From a virus, in the IMG/VR virus record IMGVR_UViG_3300034190_003093, positions 1 through 64,000 of that record: a stretch of DNA of 64,000 nucleotides. The stretch is one strand, 5' to 3'. Under the pieces are notes generated by a model that was not told the DNA's origin, did no database searches, and saw only the letters and a program-made list of their open reading frames with translations. The translations under genes were made by a program, and so were the position numbers. This document shows positions 28,934-63,999 of this stretch, one piece after another (position 1 is the first letter of the stretch; every line of letters begins with the position of its first letter).

Positions 28934-29142
28934 ATACCACAACCAACATGTATATCGTGCATACATATAACAAAATTAAACAAGGTTGCAATCGGTTTCA
29001 CGGCGTGTACAGTAGTAAAGAACTTGCCGACATAGCAGGTAAAGAATACTGCAAAACATGGGGAGAAGAAACTTTACACCACATAGTTACTATTGCTGCA
29101 CTAGATGATATTATTAATAGTGTGCAGAAACAATCAGAGTAA
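28930..29142 (+). CDS. Hypothetical protein (70 aa)
   Basis: ATG 28930 overlaps the upstream stop; the longer frame from 28882 does not. Soluble, mixed (MYIVHTYNKIKQGCNRFHGV). Unknown. Confidence 0.5.
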   Translation: MNTTTNMYIVHTYNKIKQGCNRFHGVYSSKELADIAGKEYCKTWGEETLHHIVTIAALDDIINSVQKQSE

Positions 29143-29145
29143 ATA
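29139..29145 (+). promoter_or_regulatory. Late promoter with leaderless start (GTAAATA-N5-ATG)
   Basis: GTAAATA followed by CTGCT and ATG at 29151. In T4 the core spans -13 to -6, so ATG is at +1. No ribosome-binding site is present. Confidence 0.6.
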
Positions 29146-29150
29146 CTGCT

Positions 29151-29861
29151 ATGCAACAAATTACAAACATGAAAAAAATAGTAGGATTCGGCGATAGCTT
29201 TGTGTATGGTTCTGAATTACAGCGTGAAGGTCATAGCTGGGTTTCACAATGTGCAGAAAAACTCGAAGTAGGTTACGAAACAACCAGTGTACCTGGCTGC
29301 GGCAACGAAAACATTTCGATGCAAATATTAACATATTTTGCAAATAACCCAAAAAAGAACACTCTGGCAGTTATTAACTGGACGTGGGGAGCTCGATGGG
29401 ATTTTTATGTTCCAGGGAAAGAACAATGGACCACATTAGGTTTATCGTGTGTGCCTAGTAAACTAGCACCATTAGTAGGACTCGAAGAAGCAACAAAGAT
29501 ACTCGAGTTTTACAACAAGTATCCAGGACATAGCACACTATGGGACAAGTTTAGATCACTGCAAACTATTCATTCAACTCAACAATTTCTAAAATTACAC
29601 AACATACCTAGTGTGCAAACATACATGGACTCTGAAATTTGGGATACAAAATGGCATGCACCGGACTATATTCGTACACTGCAAGACCTTACCAAAGAAC
29701 CATTACAAACATTTGAAGGTGAAAGTTTCTTAGATTGGAGTTACACCAATAAATTTGAAGTTACCCAACCATGGTTACATCCTCTTGAAGATGCTCATAA
29801 TGCTGCATGCGACTTATGGATTGATGTTTATAGACAGGCTCTAGCAAACATGCCTTCATAA
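29151..29861 (+). CDS. SGNH/GDSL-like hydrolase (paralog 2)
   Basis: 236 aa from ATG 29151; ATG 29169 is an alternative. FGDSFVYGSELQREGHSW is block I, then VPGCGNENIS (GxxN) and a late HPLEDAHNAACDLW. Same family as 14371 and 52267; closest to 52267, with shared HSTQQ/HSTIQ and HPLEDAH blocks. An esterase with unknown substrate. Confidence 0.72.
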   Translation: MQQITNMKKIVGFGDSFVYGSELQREGHSWVSQCAEKLEVGYETTSVPGCGNENISMQILTYFANNPKKNTLAVINWTWGARWDFYVPGKEQWTTLGLSCVPSKLAPLVGLEEATKILEFYNKYPGHSTLWDKFRSLQTIHSTQQFLKLHNIPSVQTYMDSEIWDTKWHAPDYIRTLQDLTKEPLQTFEGESFLDWSYTNKFEVTQPWLHPLEDAHNAACDLWIDVYRQALANMPS

Positions 29862-29871
29862 CACAATATCA

Positions 29872-29878
29872 ATAAATA
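29872..29878 (+). promoter_or_regulatory. Late promoter with leaderless start (ATAAATA-N5-ATG)
   Basis: ATAAATA then TGTAC then ATG at 29884, which decides the start over the ATG at 29878 that overlaps the promoter core. Confidence 0.6.
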
Positions 29879-29883
29879 TGTAC

Positions 29884-30441
29884 ATGCAACAAGAAATTAG
29901 AAAATACATTCAACTAACCGAAGACAAACAAGAAGAGAAATTAGCAGCCGATGCACTGCCGTACGACAGTGGTGCATTAGCTCCTGTGCTTTCTAAAGAA
30001 AATGTTGACTACCATTACAATGTGTTGACCAAAGGATATGTAAATCGTTACAACAACAACGAAGGCGATCCTAAATTTAATTACGGTGGAGCAAAACTTC
30101 ACAACTTATTTTGGCAACAGTTACAAGCACCCAAAGGCGCAAACAGACCTACCGGGACAATTAAAGAATTTATCGACGCACACCACGAAGACTACGACAA
30201 TTTTAAAAAAGAAATGTTGCGTGTTGCAATGACACTTCAAGGCAGCGGCTGGGTGTACCTTGCTAAGAATGGCAAGATTAAAACTACGCCTAACCAATCA
30301 TACAAAACAGATATACTATTACCAATCGACATGTGGGAGCATTCGTTTATGGATTATGTGCCTGCCAAAGACGCTAAGAAAAAGTATATAAACAATATGA
30401 TGAAGATCATCAATTGGAATGCAATCAACGGGAGATTATAA
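29884..30441 (+). CDS. Protein with T4-like capsid-targeting N-terminus (185 aa)
   Basis: The N-terminus MQQEIRKYIQLTE followed by D is a short amphipathic helix ending L-T-E, like T4 capsid-targeting sequences cleaved by the prohead protease. The body is soluble, helical and basic near the C-terminus. Late promoter immediately upstream. A capsid internal protein is the best guess; the fold is unknown. Confidence 0.55.
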   Translation: MQQEIRKYIQLTEDKQEEKLAADALPYDSGALAPVLSKENVDYHYNVLTKGYVNRYNNNEGDPKFNYGGAKLHNLFWQQLQAPKGANRPTGTIKEFIDAHHEDYDNFKKEMLRVAMTLQGSGWVYLAKNGKIKTTPNQSYKTDILLPIDMWEHSFMDYVPAKDAKKKYINNMMKIINWNAINGRL

Positions 30442-30608
30442 TGATTAGACGATGGATTAAAAGTAGAGTAGATGAGCGTACTTCTTGGGATGGTGCTGTA
30501 CTAATCGGAGTCGGCTTGGTCATTTTGATTGCAGGGCCATTTGCTAAATTAGCTGCATATGCTGCTATTGCATACGGTGCTTGGGCTATTTGGCAGAAAG
30601 AAGACTAA
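30441..30608 (+). CDS. Small membrane protein (55 aa)
   Basis: ATG 30441 overlaps the upstream stop. One or two membrane helices (AVLIGVGLVILIAGPFA and AAYAAIAYGAWAIW) with a basic N-terminus. Holin-like size but no lysis context. Confidence 0.55.
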   Translation: MIRRWIKSRVDERTSWDGAVLIGVGLVILIAGPFAKLAAYAAIAYGAWAIWQKED

Positions 30609-30609
30609 T

Positions 30610-31068
30610 ATGAAAAAAGTATTAATAGCAGCAACTATTAGTTTACTATTAAGCGGGTGTTTGAGTGCTAAACCTAAATGGACAGATCCAATTACTACAA
30701 TTAACAGCAAAGTGCCTCCGGGTGAACTATTACCTTTACAAGATACTGTAACAATGCTTGAAACAAAAACAAGCGACGGCAATAGATTACATGTTATAAA
30801 AGGCACACGCAAAGCAGGAACAAGAGTTGGTATCCATGTACACAAGTATGGAGGTCATACTTGTGTTCTTAGCGGAATCATGACTGATTTTGTAGAAGGT
30901 AGTGAACCATCGCATTACCCAGCAGGTACTTGTTATTATATGCCAGCAGATACACCAATGGCAGCGGCAAACTTAGGCGAAGAAGATGCTGTATTAATCG
31001 ATACATTCATCCTACCATACGGGGAAGATGAAATTACTATTTTAGAACCAAATTGGGAGTTTAAATAA
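30610..31068 (+). CDS. Predicted cupin lipoprotein (152 aa)
   Basis: ATG 30610; signal peptide with lipobox LLSGC. Cupin core is visible: RVGIHVHKYGGHTCVLSG (motif 1 with three His) and HYPAGTCYYMPADTP...AANLG (motif 2). An envelope-anchored metal-binding cupin. Substrate unknown. Confidence 0.72.
   Translation: MKKVLIAATISLLLSGCLSAKPKWTDPITTINSKVPPGELLPLQDTVTMLETKTSDGNRLHVIKGTRKAGTRVGIHVHKYGGHTCVLSGIMTDFVEGSEPSHYPAGTCYYMPADTPMAAANLGEEDAVLIDTFILPYGEDEITILEPNWEFK
31061..31067 (+). promoter_or_regulatory. Late promoter with leaderless start (TTAAATA-N5-ATG)
   Basis: TTAAATA, ACAAC, ATG at 31073. It overlaps the end of the cupin gene. Confidence 0.55.
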
Positions 31069-31072
31069 CAAC

Positions 31073-31357
31073 ATGGTGATAACTCTTACTGAATCCGCTA
31101 AACAATACATGAAAAAAGTTGGCAAACCAAATGTATCGCTGTCTGTGAAAGGTGGTGGGTGCAGTGGCTTTCAATACGAATGGGGTGTAACTAACAAGGA
31201 AGCAACAGTGGATCATCTATGGCTAGACCCAATGGCAGAAATGTTTGTGTTTGGTTGTACAGTAGATTATGTTGAAGAACTAGGTGGTAGTTATTTAAAA
31301 GTATCTAATCCAAATGCAACAGCCAGTTGCGGCTGCGGGGAAAGCTTTGCTGCTTGA
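31073..31357 (+). CDS. A-type Fe-S carrier (IscA/HesB family)
   Basis: 94 aa, slightly short for the family. Conserved Cys in KGGGCSGFQYEW (C30) and at the end SCGCGESF (C86, C88) form the Fe-S ligands. A-type carriers deliver clusters to apoproteins. With SufE and FdxA in this window it points to support of host Fe-S assembly. Known in cyanophages and other marine T4-like phages. Confidence 0.92.
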   Translation: MVITLTESAKQYMKKVGKPNVSLSVKGGGCSGFQYEWGVTNKEATVDHLWLDPMAEMFVFGCTVDYVEELGGSYLKVSNPNATASCGCGESFAA

Positions 31358-31360
31358 TCC

Positions 31361-31367
31361 ATAAATA
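31361..31367 (+). promoter_or_regulatory. Late promoter (ATAAATA)
   Basis: ATAAATACAC, with AAAGGA and ATG at 31391 downstream: a late promoter with an ordinary leader. Confidence 0.6.
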
Positions 31368-31390
31368 CACTAGTATTAAAGGATCGTTAG

Positions 31391-31846
31391 ATGGCACAAC
31401 AAATAATCAATTTAGGAACTTCAGCAAACGCAGGCGATGGTGATAATCTTCGCAGCGCAATGGATAAAACCAACGACAACTTCACAGAAGTTTACACTGC
31501 TGGTCCTGTTGGATCAAACATCACCATCGCAAACAACTCAATCACAAGCACAAACACAAATGGTAATATATCACTAGCCACAGATGGCACCGGTGTTATT
31601 CAAATTACTAATAACGTTATCCCCGATACCAACGATCTACGTTACATCGGCAGTGCAACCAATCGCCCACGTGGCATATATGCAGGCAGTGCTGGCATTA
31701 TTAGTTCTGGTCCACTAACACTTCCTGTTTATGCCGATACCGCAGCAAGAGATGCAGCAATTACTACGCCTGCAGCAGGCATGATTGTGCTTACCGGAAC
31801 AACATTTCAAGGTTACAACGGCAGTGCCTGGGTCAACATAAGCTAA
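31391..31846 (+). CDS. Short tail-fibre-like protein (151 aa)
   Basis: N-terminal attachment module MAQQIINLGTSANAGDGDNL ... KTNDNFTEVY, shared with the next gene. Beta-rich middle and a C-terminal piece ADTAARDAAITTPAAGM..GY.GSAW common at phage fibre ends. A short virion fibre or whisker. Confidence 0.75.
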   Translation: MAQQIINLGTSANAGDGDNLRSAMDKTNDNFTEVYTAGPVGSNITIANNSITSTNTNGNISLATDGTGVIQITNNVIPDTNDLRYIGSATNRPRGIYAGSAGIISSGPLTLPVYADTAARDAAITTPAAGMIVLTGTTFQGYNGSAWVNIS

Positions 31847-31864
31847 TATAACTTACTCCAAGCC

Positions 31865-31871
31865 ATAAATA
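31865..31871 (+). promoter_or_regulatory. Late promoter (ATAAATA)
   Basis: CATAAATACT 27 bases before ATG 31899, with GAGGA between. Confidence 0.6.
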
Positions 31872-31898
31872 CTCATAACAGCAAGTTAGAGGATTACA

Positions 31899-34412
31899 AT
31901 GGCAAGACAGATTATCAATGTAGGCGCAACAGCCAATGATGGAACAGGCGATGGTCTTAGAAACGCCTATATCAAGTGTAATGATAACTTTCAAGAACTG
32001 TACAACACTACAACCACACCTACTGAAATTATCAACGGCACATCAAATATAGCTGTTGCTGAAAATGCTAATGTTACAATTAGTATTGCCGGCAGTGCCA
32101 ATGTTGTCAACTTTTCAGGATCTTTAACTGAGTTTACTGGGAACGCTAATATCTCAGGCGATTTAGCAGTTGGTAACAGTTTCACAATTACGCAAGATGT
32201 AACAGTTGGTGACCAGCTTGTTATCAACGGAACACTAGGTAGTAATCTTATCCCAGACGGCAACAGCACTAGAGACTTAGGGTCGAGCAGTGCAAGATGG
32301 AAAGACATATATCTAAGTGGTAGCAGTATTGTACTCGGAGACATTGTATTAAAAGCAAGTGCTGGCAATGTGCTCAGTGTGTTTGGCGCAGATGGTACTA
32401 CACCCGGCAGTATTAATCCTACTATTAGCAATGGAACATCGTCGATTGCCATCCCAGCAACTGACGGTGATGTGCAAATAACTGCAAATGCAATAAACAC
32501 ACTCACAGTAAGCGATGCTGGTGCTAATATCACAGGATACATTGATGCAACCGGTAATATTACAGCAACCGGCAATATACAAGGTGGTAACCTAACAATT
32601 GGCGGATTATCAGCAAGTTCTGATGTTACTGCTACTGGAAACATTACTGGAGCGTATTTTATTGGCGATGGCGGATTTCTTTCAAACGTAACGGCTGCGT
32701 CCAACGTTGCTGTTACACAGATTGCAAATGGAACAAGTGTTGTCGGTATTAGTAGTTCTGGCGGTAATGTTGAACTAACATCTGGCGGTGTACTTGTATT
32801 TGAAACAAATGGCACAACTATAGATTTCCAAGTTCCACTTCTTGGCGATGGTAGTCAGCTAACAGGCATTGATGCTACACAGATTCAAAACGGCACTAGC
32901 AGTATCGAAGTTACTACAAGCGGTGGCAACATCGAAGGCAATGTAGGTGGTGCTACAATCTTTAATGTTGCAAGTACGGGACTAGAATTATCTGCTAATA
33001 TTGCAATGGGCAGCAACTACATTACAGGTCTCGCTGATCCTTCGGCTGCGCAAGACGCTGCTACTAAAACCTACGTTGACACAATTGCAGCCGCAGGCAT
33101 TCACTACCACGATCCAGTTAGAGTTGAACAAGAAGGCAACTTAAATGCTACGTACAACAATGGCGCAAGTGGTGTAGGTGCTACACTAACCAATGCCGGT
33201 ACACAGGCAGCTCTTGTTATTGATGGCGTTACAATGGTTGTTGCTGACAGAGTATTAGTATATGAACAAACAGATGCTAGTCAAAACGGTGTGTACACTG
33301 TTACCGATATTGGTAGTGTTAGTACAAACTGGGTATTAACACGTGCCGCAGACGCTGATTCATATTCGCCAAGTGATCCTGATTCACTAGGACAAGGTGA
33401 TGCTTTCTTTGTGCAAGAAGGTGCTGCGGGTGCCGGTGAAACATATGTAATGAACACAGTAGGTACAATTACATTCGGTACTACTGATATAACTTTTGTA
33501 CAAATTTCAAGTGCACAGATTTATAGTGCAGGCAACGGTATTGACTTAACCGGTGTTACCTTCTCATTAGACAGCACATATGACGCAACATTTAACTCAA
33601 TAGCTGGTTCAGGTACAAGCCTGACTGCATTAAATGCAACTCAATTAACCACAGGGACAGTACCAAGTGCTAGACTAAGCGGGACATACTCGATCACTGC
33701 GGCCAACGTTACAAGTCAATCAAATAGTGCAACTATTACCGCAGCAAGTACAAACACTGCTAACCAGATCGTGCTAAGGGACGGAAGTGGTGCATTTAGC
33801 GCAGGGGCAATTACAGCCACAGGCGCTGGAATCACCAATCTAAACGCAAGCAACTTAGCAAGCGGCACAGTACCAAGTGCTAGACTAAGTGGAACATATT
33901 CAATTACCGCTGCTAATATTACAAGCCAGTCAAACAGTGCAACTATTGCAGCAGCAAGTGCGAACACGTTTAACACAATCGTATTACGTGATGGCAGCGG
34001 TAACTTTAGTGCCAGTACAATGACAGCACAAGCTACATCAGCCCAATACGCCGACTTAGCAGAAATGTATTCAAGTGATGAAGATTATAAACCGGGTACA
34101 GTTTTGATGTTTGGCGGTGATGCTGAAGTAACAGTAAGCAACGAAGACGCTAGTCCGAGAGTAGCAGGTGTAGTTAGTACTAATCCTGCACATTTAATGA
34201 ACAGTGATGCAATAGGTGTTGCTGTTGCATTAACAGGCAGAGTACCAACTCATGTTGTTGGGCCAGTTCGCAAAGGAGACATGATGGTTTCCACTGCAAC
34301 TGGTAAAGCAAGGGCCGAAGCTAACCCAGCAATGGGCACAGTGATTGGTAAAGCGTTAGAAGATTTTGACGGAACTCACGGAACGATCGAAGTAGTAGTA
34401 GGAAGGCTCTAA
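31899..34412 (+). CDS. Long tail-fibre protein (837 aa)
   Basis: N-terminal module MARQIINVGATANDGTGDGL, then several hundred residues of short Gly/Asn/Ser/Thr-rich beta repeats (TGNI/SGNI type). Two near-identical 70-residue repeats occupy about 572-711. The C-terminal domain (ADLAEMYSSDEDYKPGTVLM ... GTVIGKALEDFDGTHGTIEV) is a widespread phage fibre terminal domain that can cleave itself in relatives. Probably a trimeric host-binding fibre. Confidence 0.82.
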   Translation: MARQIINVGATANDGTGDGLRNAYIKCNDNFQELYNTTTTPTEIINGTSNIAVAENANVTISIAGSANVVNFSGSLTEFTGNANISGDLAVGNSFTITQDVTVGDQLVINGTLGSNLIPDGNSTRDLGSSSARWKDIYLSGSSIVLGDIVLKASAGNVLSVFGADGTTPGSINPTISNGTSSIAIPATDGDVQITANAINTLTVSDAGANITGYIDATGNITATGNIQGGNLTIGGLSASSDVTATGNITGAYFIGDGGFLSNVTAASNVAVTQIANGTSVVGISSSGGNVELTSGGVLVFETNGTTIDFQVPLLGDGSQLTGIDATQIQNGTSSIEVTTSGGNIEGNVGGATIFNVASTGLELSANIAMGSNYITGLADPSAAQDAATKTYVDTIAAAGIHYHDPVRVEQEGNLNATYNNGASGVGATLTNAGTQAALVIDGVTMVVADRVLVYEQTDASQNGVYTVTDIGSVSTNWVLTRAADADSYSPSDPDSLGQGDAFFVQEGAAGAGETYVMNTVGTITFGTTDITFVQISSAQIYSAGNGIDLTGVTFSLDSTYDATFNSIAGSGTSLTALNATQLTTGTVPSARLSGTYSITAANVTSQSNSATITAASTNTANQIVLRDGSGAFSAGAITATGAGITNLNASNLASGTVPSARLSGTYSITAANITSQSNSATIAAASANTFNTIVLRDGSGNFSASTMTAQATSAQYADLAEMYSSDEDYKPGTVLMFGGDAEVTVSNEDASPRVAGVVSTNPAHLMNSDAIGVAVALTGRVPTHVVGPVRKGDMMVSTATGKARAEANPAMGTVIGKALEDFDGTHGTIEVVVGRL
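33612..34031 (+). repeat. Two 210-base repeats in the fibre gene
   Basis: The stretch from ACAGTACCAAGTGCTAGAC recurs at 33657 and 33867, 210 bases (70 codons) apart, and similarity extends over most of the unit with mainly synonymous differences. A domain duplication that can change fibre length by recombination. Confidence 0.75.
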
Positions 34413-38906: not shown

Positions 38907-38916
38907 GAAGAGAAAA

Positions 38917-39825: not shown

Positions 39826-39840
39826 TAGGCAAACAATTAA

Positions 39841-39885: not shown

Positions 39886-39889
39886 TTCA

Positions 39890-40764: not shown

Positions 40765-41233
40765 ATTTGGTGAACTGGTATATAACATCGATGATGTAGT
40801 AGATCTTGTTATGAGTGAACAAAACATCTCAGGTATTACTGTGGACCACACTGTGGATCATCCTGATGATGTTGAGTTTGTAAATGCAACTGACAACTCT
40901 ATTACCGTTGAAGAATACGATCGTGCAAATCAACAAAAATGGCTAATGCCAGATGAATACCACGACTTAGACATTGCAAAACATGTTATTGAGTGTTGTA
41001 AAACACCCGAAGAGTTACAAAGAGTTGGGCATGAATTATTGCTGTATCAAGAACGTGACTTGTTTAATTTGTTAAAATATCTCAAGTATCTTGTTGATAC
41101 ATTAAAAGACAATAATATCATATGGGGCGTCGGCCGTGGATCCAGTGTTGCTAGCTATGTTCTATACCTATTAGGTGTGCATAGAGTCAACAGTATGTAC
41201 TATGATTTGTCGCCTGAAGAATTTCTAAGATAA
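40751..41233 (+). CDS. Standalone DnaE/PolC-like palm fragment (160 aa)
   Basis: The C-terminal 50 residues (IIWGVGRGSSVASYVLYLLG then R.N.MYYDLSPEEFL) match the conserved GRGSxxGSxVAYLLGIT..DP..Y.LLFERFL block of bacterial DNA polymerase III alpha. The catalytic aspartates and the rest of the polymerase are absent. The N-terminal 100 residues are acidic. Either a degenerate remnant or a small protein that exploits this nucleotide/DNA-binding loop. Confidence 0.68.
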   Translation: MIKNKFGELVYNIDDVVDLVMSEQNISGITVDHTVDHPDDVEFVNATDNSITVEEYDRANQQKWLMPDEYHDLDIAKHVIECCKTPEELQRVGHELLLYQERDLFNLLKYLKYLVDTLKDNNIIWGVGRGSSVASYVLYLLGVHRVNSMYYDLSPEEFLR

Positions 41234-41236
41234 ATA
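41230..41236 (+). promoter_or_regulatory. Late promoter (ATAAATA)
   Basis: GATAAATATATACG with AGGAG and ATG 41262 downstream. Confidence 0.6.
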
Positions 41237-50286: not shown

Positions 50287-51000
50287 TTAGTACAAAGATA
50301 GTACAGTGTCAATAATTGGATGGCGCTGTATATCTGTTTTAGTCATATAACACACAGCTAGCCCTGGGCTAGGTTTTGCGTTTAACTTTGAACACAAGTC
50401 AATTAATCCGTTGTCTGATGTTTTGCGATCTGCTTGTTCAACATCACCGGTGATTACAATTTTACTGTTTTCTCCTATGCGTGTCATCAACATTTTTGTT
50501 TGACTAGGCGTTGCGTTTTGCATTTCATCTGCAACAATGTATGCATTTTTAAACGTTCGTCCTCTCATAAATGCTAGTGGCGAAATTTCAATAGTTTGGG
50601 ACTCGAGCATGCGTTCAATGTCTTTGGTCGTGTAGTATTCACGTAACACATCAAATAATGGGCGTGTCCACGGTTCCATTTTACTGTTTAGATCTCCTGG
50701 AAGGAACCCGTGTTTTTCATCATCAACACCTACTGCCGGGCGTGTTAGTATAATACGCTCACACTCTTTTGCTTTAAAAGCTTTGATTGCTGCTAACATA
50801 GCCAGATAAGTTTTACCTGTGCCAGCTGGGCCAGTTGCAACCACAATTGACTGTGATTCGTCTAGTAGATTTAAGATGAGTTTTTCTTGATTGAGTGACT
50901 TAGGTCTGAGCTCAATGTTGCGATTTTTAATCGCTTGATTAAAGTTTATAGTGTTGTCTTCCCGCGGCTGATATTTTGCTTTGCGTTTGGCTCTCGACAT
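50287..51000 (-). CDS. phoH: PhoH-like ATPase
   Basis: 237 aa. Walker A GPAGTGKT (57-64) and Walker B/following motif VADEMQNATPSQTKMLMTRI, then KIVITGD. PhoH-like proteins are widespread in marine phages; RNA-helicase activity linked to RNA metabolism has been shown in cellular PhoH2. Basic N-terminus (MSRAKRKAKYQPR). GGAGATACA precedes the ATG. Phage role not established. Confidence 0.92.
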   Translation of the reverse strand: MSRAKRKAKYQPREDNTINFNQAIKNRNIELRPKSLNQEKLILNLLDESQSIVVATGPAGTGKTYLAMLAAIKAFKAKECERIILTRPAVGVDDEKHGFLPGDLNSKMEPWTRPLFDVLREYYTTKDIERMLESQTIEISPLAFMRGRTFKNAYIVADEMQNATPSQTKMLMTRIGENSKIVITGDVEQADRKTSDNGLIDLCSKLNAKPSPGLAVCYMTKTDIQRHPIIDTVLSLY

Positions 51001-51149: not shown

Positions 51150-51156
51150 CTAAATA
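51150..51156 (+). promoter_or_regulatory. Late promoter with leaderless start (CTAAATA-N5-ATG)
   Basis: CTAAATA, CAGTT, ATG at 51162; no ribosome-binding site. Decides 51162 over the ATG at 51147. Confidence 0.6.
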
Positions 51157-51161: not shown

Positions 51162-51728
51162 ATGAAAACACTAGATTCAGATATTTTTAAAAACGACCAG
51201 GACTACTGGATGATTGCTGATAATATTAAAAGCATTTACATGAGTGACGGCAGTATGAACATACTGCTAGACTTTGAAAGAGTTCTCAATGAACTTGATA
51301 TTTTTGCTTTTCGTAATTGGGAGTTAGGTGAACTAGTTGCTGGACCAAACCAGGGTCCTTATAAAACTTCATGTACATTTTTGTGGCCATTAGCACTAAT
51401 GCCTGATCCACGTGGCGCAATGCGTTTGCTGCCGTTTGATTGCGAAGTATACTGGAAGAAAACTACAATGAAAGTTCCAGCGAAGATGAAAAGTGCCAGT
51501 GATTTTAAACCTGGTACAAAAGTTGCCAAACTCGTTGAGAAGCCTGTGTGGCTAGTAGAAGTTATCATGCCCAGAAGCCTAATGTCTGATATTAAAACTG
51601 GATCTGTTGAAATTGAAGATGAAACTGTAGACTTGCAGGATCTCGACGATGCGTACTCTCAAGATCTTGATCAGCAGCAAGTCATGGATCAAGATTCACA
51701 AGAAGAGATGGAGCAAGATAATGTCTAA
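51162..51728 (+). CDS. Conserved marine T4-like phage protein (188 aa)
   Basis: Contains FRNWELGELVAGPNQGPYKT ... LMPDPRGAMRLL and VWLVEVIMPRSLMSDI, a block I associate with conserved marine T4-like hypothetical proteins. The C-terminal 45 residues are acidic and Gln-rich. Overlaps the next gene by 8 bases. Late expression suggests a virion or assembly role. Confidence 0.65.
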   Translation: MKTLDSDIFKNDQDYWMIADNIKSIYMSDGSMNILLDFERVLNELDIFAFRNWELGELVAGPNQGPYKTSCTFLWPLALMPDPRGAMRLLPFDCEVYWKKTTMKVPAKMKSASDFKPGTKVAKLVEKPVWLVEVIMPRSLMSDIKTGSVEIEDETVDLQDLDDAYSQDLDQQQVMDQDSQEEMEQDNV

Positions 51729-52971: not shown

Positions 52972-52984
52972 TAATCCAACACAC

Positions 52985-53433: not shown

Positions 53434-53434
53434 A

Positions 53435-53442
53435 TATAAATA
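53435..53442 (+). promoter_or_regulatory. Late promoter, exact TATAAATA
   Basis: Exact T4 late consensus, 27 bases before the endolysin ATG. The 17-base extension TAAATACCTATATAATA (53437-53453) recurs exactly at 60888-60904. Confidence 0.75.
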
Positions 53443-53469
53443 CCTATATAATAGAGGTACATAAAAAAA

Positions 53470-54339: not shown

Positions 54340-54341
54340 GC

Positions 54342-55035: not shown

Positions 55036-55039
55036 TCAC

Positions 55040-55068
55040 TTGACATTGTCCAAACTTTAACGTAAAAT
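55040..55068 (+). promoter_or_regulatory. Sigma-70-like promoter with leaderless start
   Basis: TTGACA at 55040-55045, 17-base spacer, TAAAAT at 55063-55068; ATG 55075 is exactly at predicted +1. No ribosome-binding site. Confidence 0.65.
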
Positions 55069-55074
55069 AACATA

Positions 55075-55890
55075 ATGTCGGATCTTTACAAAACATTAGG
55101 TGTAACTAAAAACACCAATGAAGCTGAGCTTAAAAAAGCTTATCGTAAACTTGCGATGGAACATCACCCAGACAAAGGAGGTGATGCTGATAAATTTGCA
55201 CAAATTAATAATGCTTACGAAACATTAAAAGATCCTCAAAAACGTGCAGCATATGATCGTTACGGCACTGTTGATCCACAACAACAAAGACCGCAAGGAT
55301 TCAGGCAGCAAAGTACGCCGTTTGATTTTGATAGTATTTTTGAAATATTTGGACAACGTATGGGCGGCTTTGGAGCCAGGCAACAAAACACGCAAAGACC
55401 AATGGATGCACGAATGAGTATAACCATTGATTTGCCAACCGCTGTAGCAGGTGGAAAAAAGATATTTGCTGTGCAAACACACACAGGACCGCATAGTATC
55501 GAAATTAGCATACCCAAAGGCGTAGTCGATAACGAACATGTACGGTATCCCAAGTTAGGGCCTAATGGCTTAGACTTGGTTATGACTTTTAGAGTTCTTG
55601 GACATAAAAAATGGCATCGTGACGGGCTTGACTTGCACATTGAACAGCCTGTTGATTTTTGGCAGCTGATATTAGGATGCACGTTGACTATTACAGATAT
55701 ACTAGGGCGCACATATGGGTTAACTGTTCCGCCTAAAACCAAACCAGGATGTGTTATGCGAATGCACAACAAAGGTATCGAAAGAGAAGGTCACAACACA
55801 GGTGATATCTTTGTGAAATTAAAAGCAACACTACCGGACAACATACCTGACGAAGTAATAAGAATAATAAAAAACAACCAAAATAAATAA
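55075..55890 (+). CDS. DnaJ-like co-chaperone without zinc finger
   Basis: 271 aa. J domain 1-65 with HPD (HHPDKGG), Gly/Phe/Gln-rich linker (about 70-110), then two beta-sandwich substrate-binding domains (DLHIEQPVDFWQLILGC, GCVMRMHNKGI). The CXXCXGXG zinc repeats are missing, so it is a CbpA/type II-like J protein. Would recruit host DnaK. Followed by clpA. Confidence 0.88.
   Translation: MSDLYKTLGVTKNTNEAELKKAYRKLAMEHHPDKGGDADKFAQINNAYETLKDPQKRAAYDRYGTVDPQQQRPQGFRQQSTPFDFDSIFEIFGQRMGGFGARQQNTQRPMDARMSITIDLPTAVAGGKKIFAVQTHTGPHSIEISIPKGVVDNEHVRYPKLGPNGLDLVMTFRVLGHKKWHRDGLDLHIEQPVDFWQLILGCTLTITDILGRTYGLTVPPKTKPGCVMRMHNKGIEREGHNTGDIFVKLKATLPDNIPDEVIRIIKNNQNK
55882..55889 (+). promoter_or_regulatory. 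Late promoter (AATAAATA) for clpA
   Basis: AATAAATA at the dnaJ end, then AAAGGA and the clpA ATG at 55914. Confidence 0.5.
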
Positions 55891-55913
55891 CAGTATAAAA
55901 CTAAAGGAATATT

Positions 55914-58199
55914 ATGCAATTAAATCCAGAAATTGAGTCAATTCTCATTGATGCAACTAAACTTGCACACAACAAAGATCATGCATATGTAACAATTGAA
56001 CACTTGTGCCTGTCACTATTGCGTCATCCTCCTTTTTGGAAATGTATTGATAAGTTTGGTGTGAGTCCTGAGGGACTTGATGAAGATCTGGAGTTTCATC
56101 TAGACAGTCTTGAGTCATTGAAACACCCAGTTGTGTCCAAGGGCAGCGAACCTAAAAAAACCAATGCATTAGAACGAGTGTTTAATCGTGCATCAACACA
56201 GGTAATGTTCGGCGGTCGGCGCACTATGACTACAATTGACTTGTGGCTTTCTATCATGGGAGAAAACAACAGCCATGCACATTACTTCATGCTCAAGCAC
56301 GGTGTACTTAAAAAAGACTTTGTAAATTTTTGGCAAGAACATTACCAAGGAAAAGGGGAAAGTGGCATGGCGCACGAACAAGCCAATACTATCCTTAAAG
56401 AACACTGTACTAACATTACTGAATTAGCGAACAATGACAAGCTTGAACCAGTAATTGGACGTGACACAGAATTAAACGATATAATCACAGTATTAGCCAA
56501 GAAATTTAAAAGTAATGTGTTGATGGTAGGCGATCCAGGTGTAGGCAAGACTGCAATTGCCGAAGGACTAGCCACTATGATCAAAGACAATAGAACACCT
56601 GAATTTCTTCAAGGATTTGAAGTATGGGGATTGGAAATTGGTAGTTTGCTTGCTGGTTCGAAGTATCGAGGAGACTTTGAAGAAAAGCTGAAAGATGTTA
56701 TTGCTGCACTTGAATCAAAGAAAAACTGTATTTTGTTTATCGACGAAGCACACACTATGAAAGGTGCTGGTAGCGGCAGCGGTAGCAGTCTCGACTTTGC
56801 TAATATGATCAAGCCAGCAATTACTAAAGGTAATATTAAAGTGATTGCAAGTACTACCTGGGAAGAATTCTACGAAAGCTTTGAGCAAGATCGTGCACTG
56901 ATGCGAAGATTCTATAGAGTCAGCATCGACGAGCCAGACACAAAAACAACAATTAAAATCTTACAAGGGTTGCAGTCAAGGTTTGAAGACTTTCACAACG
57001 TAGCAATACACCCAGACGCAATTATTAAAGCTGTTGATTTGGCTACTCGCTACATGAATGATAAGAAAAATCCTGACAAAAGCATTGACTTGATTGATGC
57101 TGCATGTGCAGTTGAACGTGTAAAAGACATATCAGGACTTGTAGTAACCGAATCATCAATCGAAACGCAGGTAGCAAGAGTTGCTAATATACCAGAAACT
57201 AAAATTGCTGGCGATATGAGTAATAAAATTCTCGAACTTAATTCGCATATTAAACAAAAACTATTTGGCCAAGACCATGTAGTTGATGAAGTATTAGACA
57301 GGCTTTATGTTAACTATGCCGGAATCGGTGCACTTAATCGTCCAATGGGAGCATATTTGTTTCTAGGCCCAACCGGCACAGGTAAAACTGAGTTTGCTAA
57401 ATTAATTAGTAACAACCTAGACATGGAATTGTTGCGTTACGATATGAGTGAATACCAAGACAAGCACACAGTTAGTAGTTTACTTGGTGCACCTCCTGGC
57501 TTCGTTGGGTATGATGACAGCAATCTTGGTGGCGGAAAGCTCATTAGTGATGTGAGTAAGAATCCATACAGTGTGTTGTTGTTTGATGAAATCGAAAAGG
57601 CACACCCAGATGTGTCAAACATCTTCTTGCAAATGATGGACGAAGGTAAAATTTCAGGCGCTAATGGTAAAACTATTGATATTAAAAACTGCATTATCAT
57701 TATGACTTCGAACTTGGGTGCACGTGATAACGAAAACAACAACATTGGGTTTGGGCAAGACTTAAACAAAACAGGCAGTGAAGATAAAGCAGTCAAGGAC
57801 TATTTCAAGCCAGAACTAAGAAATAGGTTGGATCTTATTGTTAAATTCAAGCCATTGGAAAAACTAGCAATCAAGAAAATTGTTACCAAGTTTGCCAACG
57901 AGTTGCGAGTTAGCCTTAATGATAAAAACATCAACCTCATACTATCTGAACAATTAACCAATCACTTGGTAGAAGTTGGTTACGATCCATTAATGGGTGC
58001 TCGTCCACTAGGGCGTAAAATAGATGAACTGATCAAAGTACCATTGAGTAAGAAAATTTTGTTTCAAAAACTAAAAAATTGTCATGTCACAGCTGATTTA
58101 CTTGACGGCAAGGTTGTTCTTACCAGCAAACCTAAAACTAATGTCAGTGCTGAAGTAAATGAGAACGGTGTAGTAGTTGTAAAGGATGACGATGCTTGA
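55914..58199 (+). CDS. clpA: ClpA-like AAA+ unfoldase
   Basis: 761 aa, the size of ClpA. N-terminal Clp repeat region, first Walker A GDPGVGKTA (about 205) with Walker B FIDEAH, second Walker A GPTGTGKTE (about 484) with LFDEIEKAHP. No long M-domain coiled coil, so ClpA rather than ClpB/C. An IGFG segment after NNN may be the ClpP-binding loop. It could redirect host ClpP or remodel proteins alone. Late promoter. Confidence 0.92.
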   Translation: MQLNPEIESILIDATKLAHNKDHAYVTIEHLCLSLLRHPPFWKCIDKFGVSPEGLDEDLEFHLDSLESLKHPVVSKGSEPKKTNALERVFNRASTQVMFGGRRTMTTIDLWLSIMGENNSHAHYFMLKHGVLKKDFVNFWQEHYQGKGESGMAHEQANTILKEHCTNITELANNDKLEPVIGRDTELNDIITVLAKKFKSNVLMVGDPGVGKTAIAEGLATMIKDNRTPEFLQGFEVWGLEIGSLLAGSKYRGDFEEKLKDVIAALESKKNCILFIDEAHTMKGAGSGSGSSLDFANMIKPAITKGNIKVIASTTWEEFYESFEQDRALMRRFYRVSIDEPDTKTTIKILQGLQSRFEDFHNVAIHPDAIIKAVDLATRYMNDKKNPDKSIDLIDAACAVERVKDISGLVVTESSIETQVARVANIPETKIAGDMSNKILELNSHIKQKLFGQDHVVDEVLDRLYVNYAGIGALNRPMGAYLFLGPTGTGKTEFAKLISNNLDMELLRYDMSEYQDKHTVSSLLGAPPGFVGYDDSNLGGGKLISDVSKNPYSVLLFDEIEKAHPDVSNIFLQMMDEGKISGANGKTIDIKNCIIIMTSNLGARDNENNNIGFGQDLNKTGSEDKAVKDYFKPELRNRLDLIVKFKPLEKLAIKKIVTKFANELRVSLNDKNINLILSEQLTNHLVEVGYDPLMGARPLGRKIDELIKVPLSKKILFQKLKNCHVTADLLDGKVVLTSKPKTNVSAEVNENGVVVVKDDDA

Positions 58200-58869
58200 A
58201 TCTAACTTAGTTCCTCGTTCTAGTTTATACTACAGTAAATATGAGTATGCAATAGGGTTTTATATGCCCGATGTTCATATGGTACGCCACAAATCTCACA
58301 ATCAAATTGATTCAATTTTTAAGAATCGAGAAGACAGAGAATACAGGACAGATTTTCGTTCCTGGAAGTCGTTGTACAGTGCCGGTTTAGATTTGTACGG
58401 ACCCACTGGCGACATTTATCAACTACACGAATTCCTATACTTTATTGAAAATATAAACACAGAGTATAAAATAATAACACAGCGCCATCACGGGCACTTG
58501 TATACAAACGACACAAATCTTTTCCAAGAAGTTAGTGCACTAGAATATCTTAGAATAACAAGTTACAATAAAGTTGACCCAAGACCCGCAGGGACCCTTG
58601 AATTAAAAAATCCAAAACATGACTACAGAACTTATTTTAAAAACAAGCGTATAAGCAATGATGAAAAAGAACAACTAACTAAATTTCTTCTCAATCAAAG
58701 TGATATACGAATAGGCCCGGGGTTGCTGCATTTTATCACACAAATGCCAAATTATCGTTATGTACAATCAAACTATTTTATAGATCACAACAACATAGGA
58801 TTGTTGACTATGATACAAATGATTTGCCCAGCTATATTGAATGAACCTCTAATGTTAATCAAGCGATAA
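58192..58869 (+). CDS. Hypothetical protein (225 aa)
   Basis: ATG 58192 chosen because AAAGG fits it; ATG 58186 is possible. Starts inside the clpA gene. Tyr/His-rich soluble protein (YYSKYEYAIGFYMPD, QRHHGHLYTN). I do not recognise the family. Confidence 0.6.
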   Translation: MLESNLVPRSSLYYSKYEYAIGFYMPDVHMVRHKSHNQIDSIFKNREDREYRTDFRSWKSLYSAGLDLYGPTGDIYQLHEFLYFIENINTEYKIITQRHHGHLYTNDTNLFQEVSALEYLRITSYNKVDPRPAGTLELKNPKHDYRTYFKNKRISNDEKEQLTKFLLNQSDIRIGPGLLHFITQMPNYRYVQSNYFIDHNNIGLLTMIQMICPAILNEPLMLIKR

Positions 58870-58872
58870 ATA
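58866..58872 (+). promoter_or_regulatory. Late promoter with leaderless start (ATAAATA-N5-ATG)
   Basis: ATAAATA overlapping the upstream stop, ACATT, ATG at 58878. Confidence 0.6.
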
Positions 58873-58877
58873 ACATT

Positions 58878-59057
58878 ATGGCAAAGATAAACTCAACATC
58901 TATAGCAATCACAGTAAGCGAACTAGTCAAGGATGATTCACCTGCTACGGAACTTCTCAATGATGAAATTATTGCACAACTCGAGGCAGTAATTTCGCAA
59001 CTAGCAAACGAAAACTCGCAGAGTGGTGTGCTAGTAGAAGTAATCAAAGCAGAATAA
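58878..59057 (+). CDS. Small acidic protein (59 aa)
   Basis: Helical acidic protein (MAKINSTSIAITVSELVKDD then LLNDEIIAQLEAVISQL). Predicted leaderless. Its stop precedes the next ATG by one base. Unknown. Confidence 0.55.
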   Translation: MAKINSTSIAITVSELVKDDSPATELLNDEIIAQLEAVISQLANENSQSGVLVEVIKAE

Positions 59058-59058
59058 A

Positions 59059-59418
59059 ATGAAATCCAGTAACCTTGTACTAATTCCAGAAACAGTCCAC
59101 AGTGGCACTTCAGTTATAACTGGAGAGCGACAAAAAGCAGTGGGCTATTATCAAGGACAAGGTAACAGTCAGAGTGTAAGATTTATTGCTGACGATTTTC
59201 CTGGGTTGGTGACTATACAAGCAAGTTTAGACACAGACCCAACGGTGGACAGTGAATGGTTTAATGTGTATACCTTTCCCGGCGATAGTGCTGTTGACGG
59301 ATCAACTGCGATTACTACAGATTACAGTATTACAATTTACGGGAAGTTTACTTGGTTACGTGCAATTGTTAGTCAGTTTACTGATGGCGAAATTGGGCCT
59401 ATCACGCTAAGTTATTAG
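59059..59418 (+). CDS. Small virion-like beta protein (119 aa)
   Basis: Beta-rich, aromatic (VGYYQGQGNSQSVRFIADDF, YTFPGDSAVDGST, YGKFTWLRAIVSQF). Resembles head-decoration or tail-accessory proteins in composition. Unknown family. Confidence 0.5.
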   Translation: MKSSNLVLIPETVHSGTSVITGERQKAVGYYQGQGNSQSVRFIADDFPGLVTIQASLDTDPTVDSEWFNVYTFPGDSAVDGSTAITTDYSITIYGKFTWLRAIVSQFTDGEIGPITLSY

Positions 59419-59434
59419 GAAGAATAAGAATACT

Positions 59435-60862: not shown

Positions 60863-60886
60863 TTTAGTACTGCCTACAACCTTCCG

Positions 60887-60893
60887 TTAAATA
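60887..60893 (+). promoter_or_regulatory. Late promoter (TTAAATA)
   Basis: TTAAATACCTATATAATA: 17 bases (60888-60904) identical to the promoter at 53437-53453. GAGGAACC precedes ATG 60922. Confidence 0.6.
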
Positions 60894-60921
60894 CCTATAT
60901 AATATAACCCATGAGGAACCA

Positions 60922-61833
60922 ATGGCCGAAGATAACAACGTAGAAGACAACAACACCGATATTCAAGTTGAAACAGTCGATCCCAACAAAGTGCAAGTAA
61001 ATATTGATTTTTTACGGCAGCAAAAAGTACATATATGTATGCCATGTTATGGAGGTATGCTAACTGAATCTACTTTTATGAGTTTTATTCGATTTAGTAA
61101 TACAGCAAGGCAACTTGGACTAGATTGGACTGTTGAAACACTTACAAACGAAAGTTTGATTAGTCGTGCCAGAAATACCATGACAGCAAAGTTTCTCAAT
61201 ACAGAAAAGTCAACACACTTGATGTTTATTGATGCTGACATTGGCTGGCAACCTTGGCACTTATTGCTGTTGTTGCATCAAGACAAAGATGTTATTGGCG
61301 GTATGTATCCTCTTAAATCTCTACCAGTTAAATGGTGCGTGAATGGATTCGAAGGTGCAAAAACAGAAGATGACGGAAGACTTCAGGAAGTAAGTAAAAC
61401 AGGAACAGGCTTTTTGTTGATCAAGCGTCATGTGTTTGAAAAACTCGACAACCATCCGTCAGTTGTTCCTTTTCAAAATGACATTGGCCTCGATCCTGCA
61501 CTAAACAAACACATGAAAACCTATTTTGACACTGATGTTCGCGAAGGACGTTACTACAGCGAAGACTGGACATTCTGCGAAAACTGGCGTGATCTAGGTG
61601 GTGAAGTGTGGGTCGACAAGCGTGTGCTGTTGCAACACAGTGGTAGTTTTGTTTTTGATCATAACGAGCAAGGCAACATTTTTAAAGCACTGCAAGCCGA
61701 GATAGAACGCAATGGCCCATTGGAAGCACAAGCTACTGACGTAGGCACTATCGAATTGCCAGGCCAAGCTCCAACAGCACCAAATGGTGCTAGACTTCTT
61801 GCTAAAAACCAACAAAAAAAGAAAGCTAGCTAA
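60922..61833 (+). CDS. GT-A-fold glycosyltransferase-like protein
   Basis: 303 aa. After an acidic N-terminus, VHICMPCYGGM and ESLISRARNTMTAKFL match the nucleotide-sugar binding start; FIDADIGWQPWHL contains the DxD-like metal motif and YSEDWTFCENWRDLGG the acceptor side. Phage glycosyltransferases of this type modify capsid or tail proteins or DNA bases. Late promoter suggests virion glycosylation. Confidence 0.75.
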   Translation: MAEDNNVEDNNTDIQVETVDPNKVQVNIDFLRQQKVHICMPCYGGMLTESTFMSFIRFSNTARQLGLDWTVETLTNESLISRARNTMTAKFLNTEKSTHLMFIDADIGWQPWHLLLLLHQDKDVIGGMYPLKSLPVKWCVNGFEGAKTEDDGRLQEVSKTGTGFLLIKRHVFEKLDNHPSVVPFQNDIGLDPALNKHMKTYFDTDVREGRYYSEDWTFCENWRDLGGEVWVDKRVLLQHSGSFVFDHNEQGNIFKALQAEIERNGPLEAQATDVGTIELPGQAPTAPNGARLLAKNQQKKKAS

Positions 61834-61836
61834 AGC

Positions 61837-61843
61837 ATAAATA
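61837..61843 (+). promoter_or_regulatory. Late promoter with leaderless start (ATAAATA-N5-ATG)
   Basis: ATAAATA, CTGAC, ATG at 61849; no ribosome-binding site. Confidence 0.6.
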
Positions 61844-61848
61844 CTGAC

Positions 61849-63999
61849 ATGCGAGCATCATGGTTTGAATCTAAAGAAAAAATAACATTATGGCACAACC
61901 CTGGTTACAGGGGTGCCGACATACCTGATGAATTTATGAAGCGTTCTGCTGACAAAGATATACCATTGTCTCAGTTATACGGATTTGAATCCACAGACAA
62001 GTTGAATGCCAAAGAGCATGGAGATCAAGTTTTAAGCATTGCTGTTAAAATGAAAGCAAACATGTGGAACGGTGATCCTATTGTTGTAACCCGTACCACT
62101 GATGGTTATATGATTCTTGACGGTCACCACAGATTTGCCGCTGCAAAAAAAGCTGGGCTTGAAAGTTTGCCAGCAATTGTAGTAGATGCTAGCGAACTTG
62201 AACATCGCAACGATATTCCCAAAGCTAAAGTTGAAGAAGCAAGTGGCTACATTCCAACTAAAGCACAAGCAAAAGATCCTCGATTTAGTAGTGCACTCAC
62301 TGTTGACGTTAAGCCAGGTGAAACACAGCGCCAGGCTGCTAAACTAGGTATGAAGATTGACAAAAAGGGCAGTCCTCCACTACTGCATGCAACAGCAGCT
62401 AAAAACACCAGTGCTAACAAGGCGTATAATCTAGGGTTAGTAGAAAGTTTACAAGCAAAGTATGATGCAATTAGATCTAGCAACGTAAACGAAGAAAGCA
62501 TTAATGAAAGTGTCAACGAAGTATCTAAAGAAGAATTTGACGCTATCCGAAATGGATACGTAGATATCGAATTTGATAAGAAATGGTGGCCATTAAATAA
62601 TGATTACCCATTAATCAAACATATCGGTAAAGCTATTGGTGCAACTAGTTGGACTAGTTGGGGTAAAGTTGGGGTCCCATGGTCAACAACAGAAATGATC
62701 GGTGGTGGTGGCACGTATATGCTTAAAGGGGACTTTGGACATATACTATTAGATGCAGCAAAGAGTTATCGCCCAGAAAAAATCTTAATGTCACAAATCT
62801 CAACGTCAGAACGAGGTGCGGGCATAGGCGGTAAAGTTATGAATGCAATAAAATCATATGCAGATCAAAACAAATTACCGTTGACAGTATATAAAGTAAC
62901 TAACCGGAAGTTTTTCGACAAGTTTGAATGGTTAGAAAAAACAGGCACTGATACATACGAATACAAACTTAATGAAAGTGTTAACGAAGGTTACAAGCTA
63001 CAACTAGAACGTGATGCTGATATGATGGTGTTAAACATTACTGATACCGCAACTGGCAAGCGTACAGAAGTTCGTGGTAAGAGTGGCTATGAAAGTGGTA
63101 ACTACGATGCGAATGACAAACTACATCAGCTATTAGATAGAATTAGCAAAGCATCAAACATCTCAGACTTAATCAATGGCGAAGTTGTAGGTATCAATCC
63201 TAAGCATCCTGACGGTAAGAGTGCAAAGACTGCAACAGATACAGCATTTAACGAAGATGTAAATATAGACAACAAAGAAGGTTGGGGTGCTGTTCCTAAC
63301 AACCAAGAAGTTGACTATTTTGGCATGCGTGTTAAGATGAAACCAAGTGTGTTTTTGAAATTAGCAGAAAGCAGACGTGGTGTTCCGGCAGTTGATAAAG
63401 TAGTTGATCATATCAAAAATGGTGGTGCAATTGGAGCACCTTTTCTTATTATTAGTTACACAGAAGGCAGTACAGCAGAAATCATTGGGCATGAAGGTCG
63501 CAGCAGAATGATTGCCATACAACAAGTATTTGGCGACATTCCTGTTGAAGTACATTTATTTTTTAACAGTAACACTGTTAACCGTGCAAGACATTTAACT
63601 CCAGACATTATTGCTGATATTAACAAAGCAATGTTAAGCCAGGATGACCAAGAACTTAGTGGCCCATTTTTCACAGAAAGCATTAATGAGAAGATTACAA
63701 AGCGTACCCCAATGGGTGATGTTATTGATGATTTCTACCAAAGTGATGCTCCGCAATTCAAAGGTAAAAGTAAAGCAAAGCGTAGACAAATGGCTATTGC
63801 TGCAAAATTAGCCAAAATGGATGAAAACTTTGCAGACGGTAAAGTAAAAGGCAAAAGCAAACCGGGTCGTGTAAAAGCAGCAGGTGCAAGTTGCAACGGT
63901 AGTGTAACTGATTTACGTGCTCGTGCAAAGAAATATTCAGGCGAGCGAGCTAAGATGTATCACTGGTGTGCCAATATGAAGAGTGGAAAAAAGAAATAA
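61849..63999 (+). CDS. Multidomain ParB-fold/GNAT protein with prohead-protease-like motifs (716 aa)
   Basis: Domains in order: ParB/Srx-like with MILDGHHRFAAAKKAG (88-103); a GNAT-like domain about 225-370 with STSERGAGIGGKVMNAI; a short domain 381-450; a second ParB-like domain about 480-610 with IGHEGRSRMIAIQQV; and a basic tail with RVKAAGASCNGS and MYHWCANMKSG, seen at the C-termini of other marine phage proteins. Linkers contain SINE-S (217-221), LNE-S (374-377) and SINE-K (611-615), close to the T4 prohead-protease consensus. Predicted leaderless and late. Possibly a packaged polyprotein. Confidence 0.65.
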   Translation: MRASWFESKEKITLWHNPGYRGADIPDEFMKRSADKDIPLSQLYGFESTDKLNAKEHGDQVLSIAVKMKANMWNGDPIVVTRTTDGYMILDGHHRFAAAKKAGLESLPAIVVDASELEHRNDIPKAKVEEASGYIPTKAQAKDPRFSSALTVDVKPGETQRQAAKLGMKIDKKGSPPLLHATAAKNTSANKAYNLGLVESLQAKYDAIRSSNVNEESINESVNEVSKEEFDAIRNGYVDIEFDKKWWPLNNDYPLIKHIGKAIGATSWTSWGKVGVPWSTTEMIGGGGTYMLKGDFGHILLDAAKSYRPEKILMSQISTSERGAGIGGKVMNAIKSYADQNKLPLTVYKVTNRKFFDKFEWLEKTGTDTYEYKLNESVNEGYKLQLERDADMMVLNITDTATGKRTEVRGKSGYESGNYDANDKLHQLLDRISKASNISDLINGEVVGINPKHPDGKSAKTATDTAFNEDVNIDNKEGWGAVPNNQEVDYFGMRVKMKPSVFLKLAESRRGVPAVDKVVDHIKNGGAIGAPFLIISYTEGSTAEIIGHEGRSRMIAIQQVFGDIPVEVHLFFNSNTVNRARHLTPDIIADINKAMLSQDDQELSGPFFTESINEKITKRTPMGDVIDDFYQSDAPQFKGKSKAKRRQMAIAAKLAKMDENFADGKVKGKSKPGRVKAAGASCNGSVTDLRARAKKYSGERAKMYHWCANMKSGKKK

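Follow-up and report, generated by a model that had tools for sequence, protein, structure and literature searches.

Late transcription in bacteriophage T4 depends on gp55, gp33, and gp45 and uses promoters of the type TATAAATA, whose box extends from −13 to −6. An extract of PMC2988020 puts the 8-bp box of T4 late promoters about one turn ahead of the transcription start, and NATAAATA is the late-promoter motif of cyanophage S-PM2 in a passage of PMC2984593. Here, we analyzed a window of 64,000 nt from the 137,542-bp virus record IMGVR_UViG_3300034190_003093 (G000), in which the core TAAATA stands five bases before the ATG of six genes. We conclude, with a probability of about 0.85, that gp55-type late promoters of this kind yield leaderless or nearly leaderless (0–3 nt) late mRNAs, the RNA starts being predicted. 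TAAATA would represent the T4-type late-promoter core, recognised by a gp55-like sigma factor of the phage, and would lie so near the ATG (mode five bases) that the RNA starts at its A or within about 3 bases. Such an mRNA would carry neither a leader nor a Shine-Dalgarno (SD) sequence, and ribosomes would have to begin at its 5′-terminal AUG. Elsewhere, or at the same gene in some relatives, the box would be followed by a leader of about 10–40 bases, mostly with an SD-like sequence.

In the following, N5 denotes five bases between the TAAATA box and the ATG; N4, N6, N7, and so on are used likewise. G000 is 99.96% identical across 129,678 bp to the 299,910-bp record G001, which makes it a probable fragment of a marine jumbo phage genome of ~300 kb. 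When DNA polymerases are compared, the closest isolates are Sinorhizobium phage Phosso (51.7%), Agrobacterium phage Atu_ph07 (45.7%), and Vibrio phage 2.275.O (42.9%); GAP32, CBB, and RaK2 are among those that come next. Relatives referred to below include G007 (344 kb), G011 (499.6 kb, 57% GC), and the cultured Pelagibacter phage HTVC008M (147 kb). In this pelagimyophage, the same N5 architecture recurs at 12 annotated starts, whereas its smaller genome encodes a gp55 and a clamp far closer to those of T4 than in the jumbo phages; according to an extract of PMC7029224, late-promoter prediction was unsuccessful in pelagimyophages. The likeness to T4 itself lies in the TAAATA core, the predicted start about one turn downstream, the structural genes served, and the gp55 homologue. 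T4 and the two cyanobacterial phages Syn9 and S-PM2 differ in that our crude caller of open reading frames (ORFs) found zero gene starts at N4–N8 after the box, their gene-linked boxes standing at N14–N44 (29, 26, and 38, respectively); boxes at that distance number 41 in G001, 39 in G007, 23 in G011, and 12 in HTVC008M.

Lambda cI is another example of a bacterial leaderless mRNA. The leaderless mRNAs of Mycobacterium, Deinococcus, and Sinorhizobium resemble the present case in an AUG at or near the 5′ end (predicted here), the lack of an SD sequence, and a preference for AUG (extracts of PMC9031893 and PMC3616915). In these extracts, the former, a review, has such mRNAs start at a 5′-terminal AUG and be read mostly by 70S particles, and the latter, a start-site map of Sinorhizobium, also has them begin at a 5′-terminal AUG. 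The present arrangement, in contrast, would be tied to the promoter of a phage sigma factor and to late genes, with predicted RNA starts. A passage of the AR9 paper calls phage transcripts "often leaderless" in passing and gives 26–491 nt for its own untranslated regions (PMC5312081). Among the matches listed from the open-licence PMC literature, we found no earlier account of T4-type phages with leaderless late mRNAs and no description of HTVC008M as leaderless. The arrangement proposed here joins the late promoter of T4 type directly to the start codon.

Spacing between TAAATA and the start codon

As a control, the reversed pattern was counted in the same records. Genes were called crudely as the longest non-overlapping ORFs, with candidate ATGs up to 60 bases from the longest start; counts of gene starts are accordingly approximate, and the caller missed some of them (58878; 75559 in HTVC008M). 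Gene starts were ranked over all combinations of hexamer and offset (0–40) with at least 4 hits, and raw ATGs in G000 over all forward-strand hexamers at offsets 0–39 with at least 5 hits. G000, which duplicates G001, is excluded from pooled counts for seven genomes. For GAP32 and SCTP-2 the tests covered N4 alone, and for P-SSM2 and KVP40 they were limited to the pattern.

All box and ATG positions of the six arrangements described in the earlier note proved exact when every TAAATA in the window was listed. Throughout G000, an ATG stands at N5 of 11 of the 60 forward TAAATA sites and of 0 of the 39 reverse sites (binomial p 9e-8), compared to 1 and 0 for the reversed pattern. No other offset from 0 to 59 has more than 5 ATGs after TAAATA, and the combination is the most extreme in the raw ranking. 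At gene starts, TAAATA-N5 takes rank 1 in G000 (8 starts, p 1e-13; five of the six, 58878 having been missed, plus 13740, 94026, and 112060), as it does in G001 (15, p 1e-24), G007 (14, p 2e-25), and HTVC008M (11, p 2e-17), in all four above SD-type hexamers. It ranks fifth in G002 and eighth in Mosig, and Melnitz has only 3 N5 gene starts. In G011, rank 1 belongs to TAAATA-N4 (53 gene starts, p 7e-119) and N5 is sixth (12 starts), out of 171 TAAATA sites. At N5, the other anagrams of TAAATA give no more than 9 of 100 in G011, where ATAAAT picks up the N4 site one base earlier, and no more than 6 elsewhere, the highest being ATAATA in G007, a reading of the TATAAT-N6 set described below.

At least one TAAATA-N5-ATG match is present in 18 of the 20 viral records. 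Pattern and control counts are 11 v 1 in G000, 18 v 0 in G001, 13 v 1 in G002, 12 v 7 in G003, 5 v 1 in G004, 4 v 4 in G005, 2 v 2 in G006, 18 v 2 in G007, 1 v 2 in G008, 5 v 1 in G009, 2 v 5 in G010, 27 v 0 in G011, 2 v 1 in G012, 6 v 0 in G013, 6 v 2 in G014, 0 v 1 in G015, 0 v 2 in G016, 1 v 0 in G017, 9 v 4 in G018, and 3 v 0 in G019. Among isolates, they are 14 v 4 in HTVC008M, 11 v 3 in Mosig, 10 v 5 in T4, 5 v 3 in both S-PM2 and Melnitz, 6 v 6 in P-SSM2, 3 v 3 in both Syn9 and Vibrio phage 2.275.O, 2 v 2 in KVP40, 3 v 2 in Phosso, 15 v 9 in Atu_ph07, 15 v 12 in PA5oct, 5 v 17 in RaK2, 2 v 11 in XaC1, 0 v 0 in DLP6, and 6 v 5 in S-SKS1. The N4 pattern does not exceed its reversed control by more than one in any of ten isolates. 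By these counts, some relatives have the trait and others lack it. The contention of the earlier note that the N5 spacing is unlikely by chance is thus borne out by the genome-wide count, by the relatives, and by the cultured phage. In the latter, 12 of the 14 N5 ATGs coincide with independently annotated starts of coding sequences, including those for head closure, baseplate, and a putative tape measure; of the remaining two, one falls within the DNA polymerase gene and one in a region lacking annotation. The 12 start codons stand at 6280, 7562, 11972, 16007 (minus), 18916 (minus), 18943, 19456, 31132, 49760, 75559, 75830, and 142360.

Initiator base, leaders, and conservation in gene families

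A pyrimidine precedes the ATG in 68 of 71 N5 starts from seven genomes, compared to 1324 of 2908 (46%) other candidate ATG starts. By genome, the counts are 15/15 in G001, 10/10 in G002, 14/14 in G007, 10/12 for N5 in G011, 10/11 in HTVC008M, 6/6 in Mosig, and 3/3 in Melnitz. Such an excess at −1 is what the A of the ATG at +1 would predict. Purines occupy the sixth position behind the box of leadered promoters in 74% of cases in G001, 73% in T4, 92% in Syn9, 76% in S-PM2, and 75% in HTVC008M. TAAATA is the search pattern by construction; the TA prefix of T4 is weaker here, the base before the box being A in 54% of leadered promoters in G001 and C in 67% of N4 sites in G011.

The six genes had been described as devoid of a ribosome-binding site, and this agrees with our counts: an SD-like 4-mer at −16 to −5 is found in none of 9 N4/N5 starts in G000, compared to 97 of 253 other candidate starts, and in 2 of 140 N4/N5 starts of the seven genomes, compared to 1101 of 2908 others, a scarcity that is partly mechanical because the box fills that region. 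Leadered promoters carry an SD-like site in 32 of 41 cases in G001, 32 of 39 in G007, 27 of 29 in T4, 8 of 26 in Syn9, and 12 of 38 in S-PM2, with a word set that differs by also accepting GGTG. In this tally, G011 has 64 leaderless starts, compared to 65 in the gene-start tally. At N5, neither GTG nor TTG departs much from expectation in G000, G001, and HTVC008M, in keeping with a preference for AUG. The preference is not strict, since GTG at N4 in G011 occurs 7 times against 2.7 expected.

The structural-protein family of 51162 comprises 44 viral loci, of which 14 have the box at N5, 1 at N4, and 28 at N27–29; one truncated locus lacks it. Among the N5 loci, protein identity ranges from 35 to 100% and the spacers read CAGTT, CTGTT, TAGTT, CTGCT, CAATC, TAAGC, and AACAT, indicating that the length is kept and not the sequence. 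In most leadered loci, this promoter is retained and position 6 after it is an A, as in CTAAATACTGTT-AACGTAAAACAAAAGGCC...ATG. The aligned loci give the impression of one gene switching naturally between leadered and leaderless forms. In the superoxide dismutase (SOD) family of 29884, 51 viral loci (L374–L424), the virus itself included, divide into N5 25, N6 10, N4 6, N19 2, and no box 8. Of the 51 loci, of which many are nearly identical, 41 thus have the box at N4–N6 before an in-frame ATG; at five (L412–L416), it falls inside the stretch aligned to query residues 2–6, and the start is assumed.

The gp55 late sigma family (phrog_234) was matched in 9 of 11 records overall, including G001 (E 2.7e-25), G002, G003, G007, G011, and HTVC008M, and the clamp family phrog_223 in 2 of 11, T4 and HTVC008M. 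The gp55-family rows of Phosso (W07 222719–223072) and Atu_ph07 (W08 474414–474824) contain internal stops; the gene may be interrupted there.

Weighing the leaderless reading

Several observations weigh against leaderless late mRNAs. The spacing varies: orthologues of 61849 have N7 in four relatives reaching the N-terminus and in G002, those of 58878 have N5 in G002 and N7 in G007 and are leadered in G011, six gene starts of G007 stand at N7, and N4 dominates in G011. Most IscA relatives lack a box (of 80 loci kept out of 239, four have N5 by eye, one of them from the same virus); these relatives were set aside as an uninformative conservation test, since most start right after an upstream gene without a box. 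Among the 76 N4 sites of G011, 63% have G rather than a pyrimidine directly before the ATG, which makes mRNAs with GAUG 5′ ends possible. The expected purine at base six of leadered promoters reaches only 66% in G007 and 56% in G011, and the bases around it also tend to be purines; across the genomes, it therefore backs +1 at that base only loosely. ATA is also enriched at N5 (9 v 1.9 expected in G000, 15 v 4.3 in G001, 12 v 5.8 in T4), which fits an AT preference at +1/+2, and part of the raw N5-ATG excess may be of this origin; in T4, raw N5-ATG occurs 10 times against 4.6 expected, yet with zero gene starts there. The nearest isolates, Phosso and Atu_ph07, show no clear N5 class, as their 18 N5 sites open mostly short frames (three of 172, 74, and 285 aa, one of 73 aa, one of 42 aa, the others at most 24 aa). 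Finally, gp55 (phrog_234) was not found in the partial records G000 and G014, and the T4 clamp family was undetected in seven viral-contig records, where a divergent clamp is possible.

Transcripts might instead be polycistronic, arise from upstream promoters, and be translated by coupling, the TAA of the box often being just the upstream stop. Many sites indeed have a same-strand gene no more than 30 bases upstream, and the TAA is the upstream stop in 2 of 19 cases in G001, in 11 of 65 in G011, and at 58867 in the window. However, the nearest upstream ORF is divergent, on the opposite strand, in 5 of 19 cases in G001, 7 of 18 in G007, 7 of 16 in G002, and 21 of 65 in G011, although some of these ORFs may be spurious. 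Coupling cannot explain 51162, whose box is preceded by a long opposite-strand ORF (50287–51000), or the back-to-back pair of N5 sites in HTVC008M (18916, minus; 18943, plus). Nor can a stop codon account for the full hexamer, the spacing, and the −1 pyrimidine, and the anagrams TAATAA and TAAAAT, which also begin with TAA, are not comparably enriched. We consider coupling unlikely; reinitiation via the box TAA was likewise rejected, fitting some sites but not those behind opposite-strand genes. That TAAATA acts in the mRNA as an AU-rich translation-initiation element rather than as a promoter would accord with its closeness to the ATG, within the stretch that a ribosome would cover, and with the mild self-complementarity of its flanks in G011. 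The same box precedes long leaders in the same genomes, however, and in the 51162 family the distance shifts from N5 to N27–29 while the box and the bases after it are retained (CTAAATACTGTT-A); together with the match to the known late-promoter core and the presence of a gp55 homologue, this renders such an element very unlikely.

A real promoter whose RNA starts a few bases inside the gene, with a later in-frame codon as the true start, is conceivable for 29151, which has a second in-frame ATG at 29169, and for SOD, whose N-termini differ between relatives. In alignments with 51162, 58878, and IscA, though, most relatives start at residues one to five, and the annotated starts at 12 of the 14 HTVC008M sites speak in the same direction, leaving internal starts slightly less likely again than an initiation element. 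TAAATA is common in AT-rich DNA, but chance is refuted by the counts above and retains a negligible probability: rank 1 over all hexamers and offsets in four records, N4 at rank 1 in G011 in spite of 57% GC, reversed controls of 0, 2, and 0 against 18, 18, and 27 in G001, G007, and G011, and 0 gene starts at N5 in T4 at 35% GC.

Leaderless mRNAs are the best reading because of the spacing excess, its recurrence, the coincidence with gene starts, and the pyrimidine(−1)-A(+1) signature. The rigid N5 of the earlier note did not hold: N5 is the mode, but orthologues with N4, N6, and N7 suggest that the constraint is a leader of 0–3 nt. A second functional class of late genes is not established: relatives differ in whether the 51162 gene has its box at N5 or a leader, and G007 also has candidate leaderless genes of the sigma70 type. 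Initiation of these messages by 70S ribosomes or by a specialised mechanism is an inference.

Genes served, features of the window, and implications

Late or structural genes behind the box include 51162, the head, baseplate, and tape-measure genes of HTVC008M, and, in G011, the terminase large subunit (N5, 467850) and the tail sheath (N4, 296363); SOD and IscA are among the leaderless-type genes and are not structural. A PHROG match was obtained for 3 of ten genes examined among the eleven largest leaderless-type genes of G011, and for 3 of 10 tested in G001, G002, and G007. An adenylate/guanylate cyclase gene is of the leaderless type in three distant phages (G007 48460, N4; HTVC008M 11972, N5; Melnitz 54825, N5).

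Features of the window are collected in Table 1. Pfam identifies the product of 29884, previously taken for a capsid-targeted candidate, as an Fe/Mn superoxide dismutase, and agrees with IscA for 31073; for 29151, formerly assigned to SGNH, no Pfam or PHROG match was found at E 0.001. The five further late promoters named before are real, with boxes one base later than given (two bases for 53435); their SD sites are present, although the SD-like AGAGG of 53437 is far from its ATG.

Table 1. TAAATA boxes and associated genes in the 64,000-nt window.
Feature	Position	Strand	Basis
TAAATA box, N5 spacer CTGCT, ATG 29151	29140..29145	+	sequence
Predicted leaderless gene, 236 aa; second in-frame ATG 29169	29151..29861	+	
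TAAATA box, N5 spacer TGTAC, ATG 29884; in-frame ATG 29878 overlaps box	29873..29878	+	
Predicted leaderless Fe/Mn superoxide dismutase gene	29884..30441	+	Pfam Sod_Fe_C E 1.5e-19
TAAATA box, N5 spacer ACAAC, ATG 31073	31062..31067	+	
Predicted leaderless IscA-like Fe-S protein gene	31073..31357	+	Fe-S_biosyn E 1.2e-11
TAAATA box, N5 spacer CAGTT, ATG 51162	51151..51156	+	
Predicted leaderless virion structural protein gene	51162..51728	+	phrog_12928 E 3.4e-25
TAAATA box, N5 spacer ACATT, ATG 58878; box TAA is stop of ORF 58186-58869	58867..58872	+	
Predicted leaderless 59-aa gene	58878..59057	+	
TAAATA box, N5 spacer CTGAC, ATG 61849	61838..61843	+	
Predicted leaderless 716-aa gene with ParB_N domain	61849..63999	+	
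Leadered late promoter, N23, AAAGGA before ATG 31391	31362..31367	+	
Leadered late promoter, N27, AGAGGA before ATG 31899	31866..31871	+	
Leadered late promoter, N25, AGGAG before ATG 41262	41231..41236	+	
Leadered late promoter, N27, AGAGG unusually far from ATG 53470	53437..53442	+	
Leadered late promoter, N24, AAAGGA before ATG 55914; absent from the earlier list	55884..55889	+	
Leadered late promoter, N28, GAGGA before ATG 60922	60888..60893	+	

Two further TAAATA-N5-ATG matches lie in the window. The one at 58236/58247 opens a 2-codon frame inside ORF 58186–58869 and was dismissed as chance; the other, at 13729/13740, is ambiguous, its ATG being in frame with ATG 13725, which has its own SD-like sequence. 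The gene at 13725–13982 has three in-frame ATGs, 13725 (SD-like site), 13734, and 13740 (N5 of the box), and possibly uses two start modes.

Additional observations concern single relatives. In G007, seven gene starts follow TATAAT at N6 (e.g. 205807, 88522, and 75907), five of them with a TTGAC-type hexamer 17 bases upstream; they form a candidate set of sigma70-type leaderless genes, which hints that leaderless mRNAs may be generally tolerated in the G007 system. In G002, gene starts also show an excess of the variant box TAAGTA at N5 (7 of 128). The box flanks of G011 are more self-complementary than shuffled pairings (57 pairs v 37.7 expected at N5, 105 v 86.4 at N4; e.g. CCCCTAAATAGGGG-ATG), which was not seen in five other genomes tested. 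A phage-encoded ribosomal protein S21 was rejected as the cause of the arrangement, as its presence (7 of 16 records: G007, G011, G014, HTVC008M, Phosso, Atu_ph07, and PA5oct; absent from G000, G001, G002, G003, G018, T4, S-PM2, P-SSM2, and Syn9) does not track leaderless boxes.

In a broader sense, marine T4-like phages across lineages might express a substantial part of their late programme, and one 500-kb phage the larger part, from leaderless mRNAs whose promoter is fused to the start codon, with late-infection ribosomes favouring 5′-terminal AUGs over SD sites; we regard this extension as tentative and rather doubtful. Overall, the same promoter type as that of T4 appears here fused to the start codon, is conserved over deep divergence, and can switch states in one gene. 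The fused architecture may explain why late-promoter prediction failed in pelagimyophages, as an extract of PMC7029224 reports. The reading is directly testable in a cultured phage, HTVC008M, and recognising fused promoters would improve start-codon calls in marine phage genomes.

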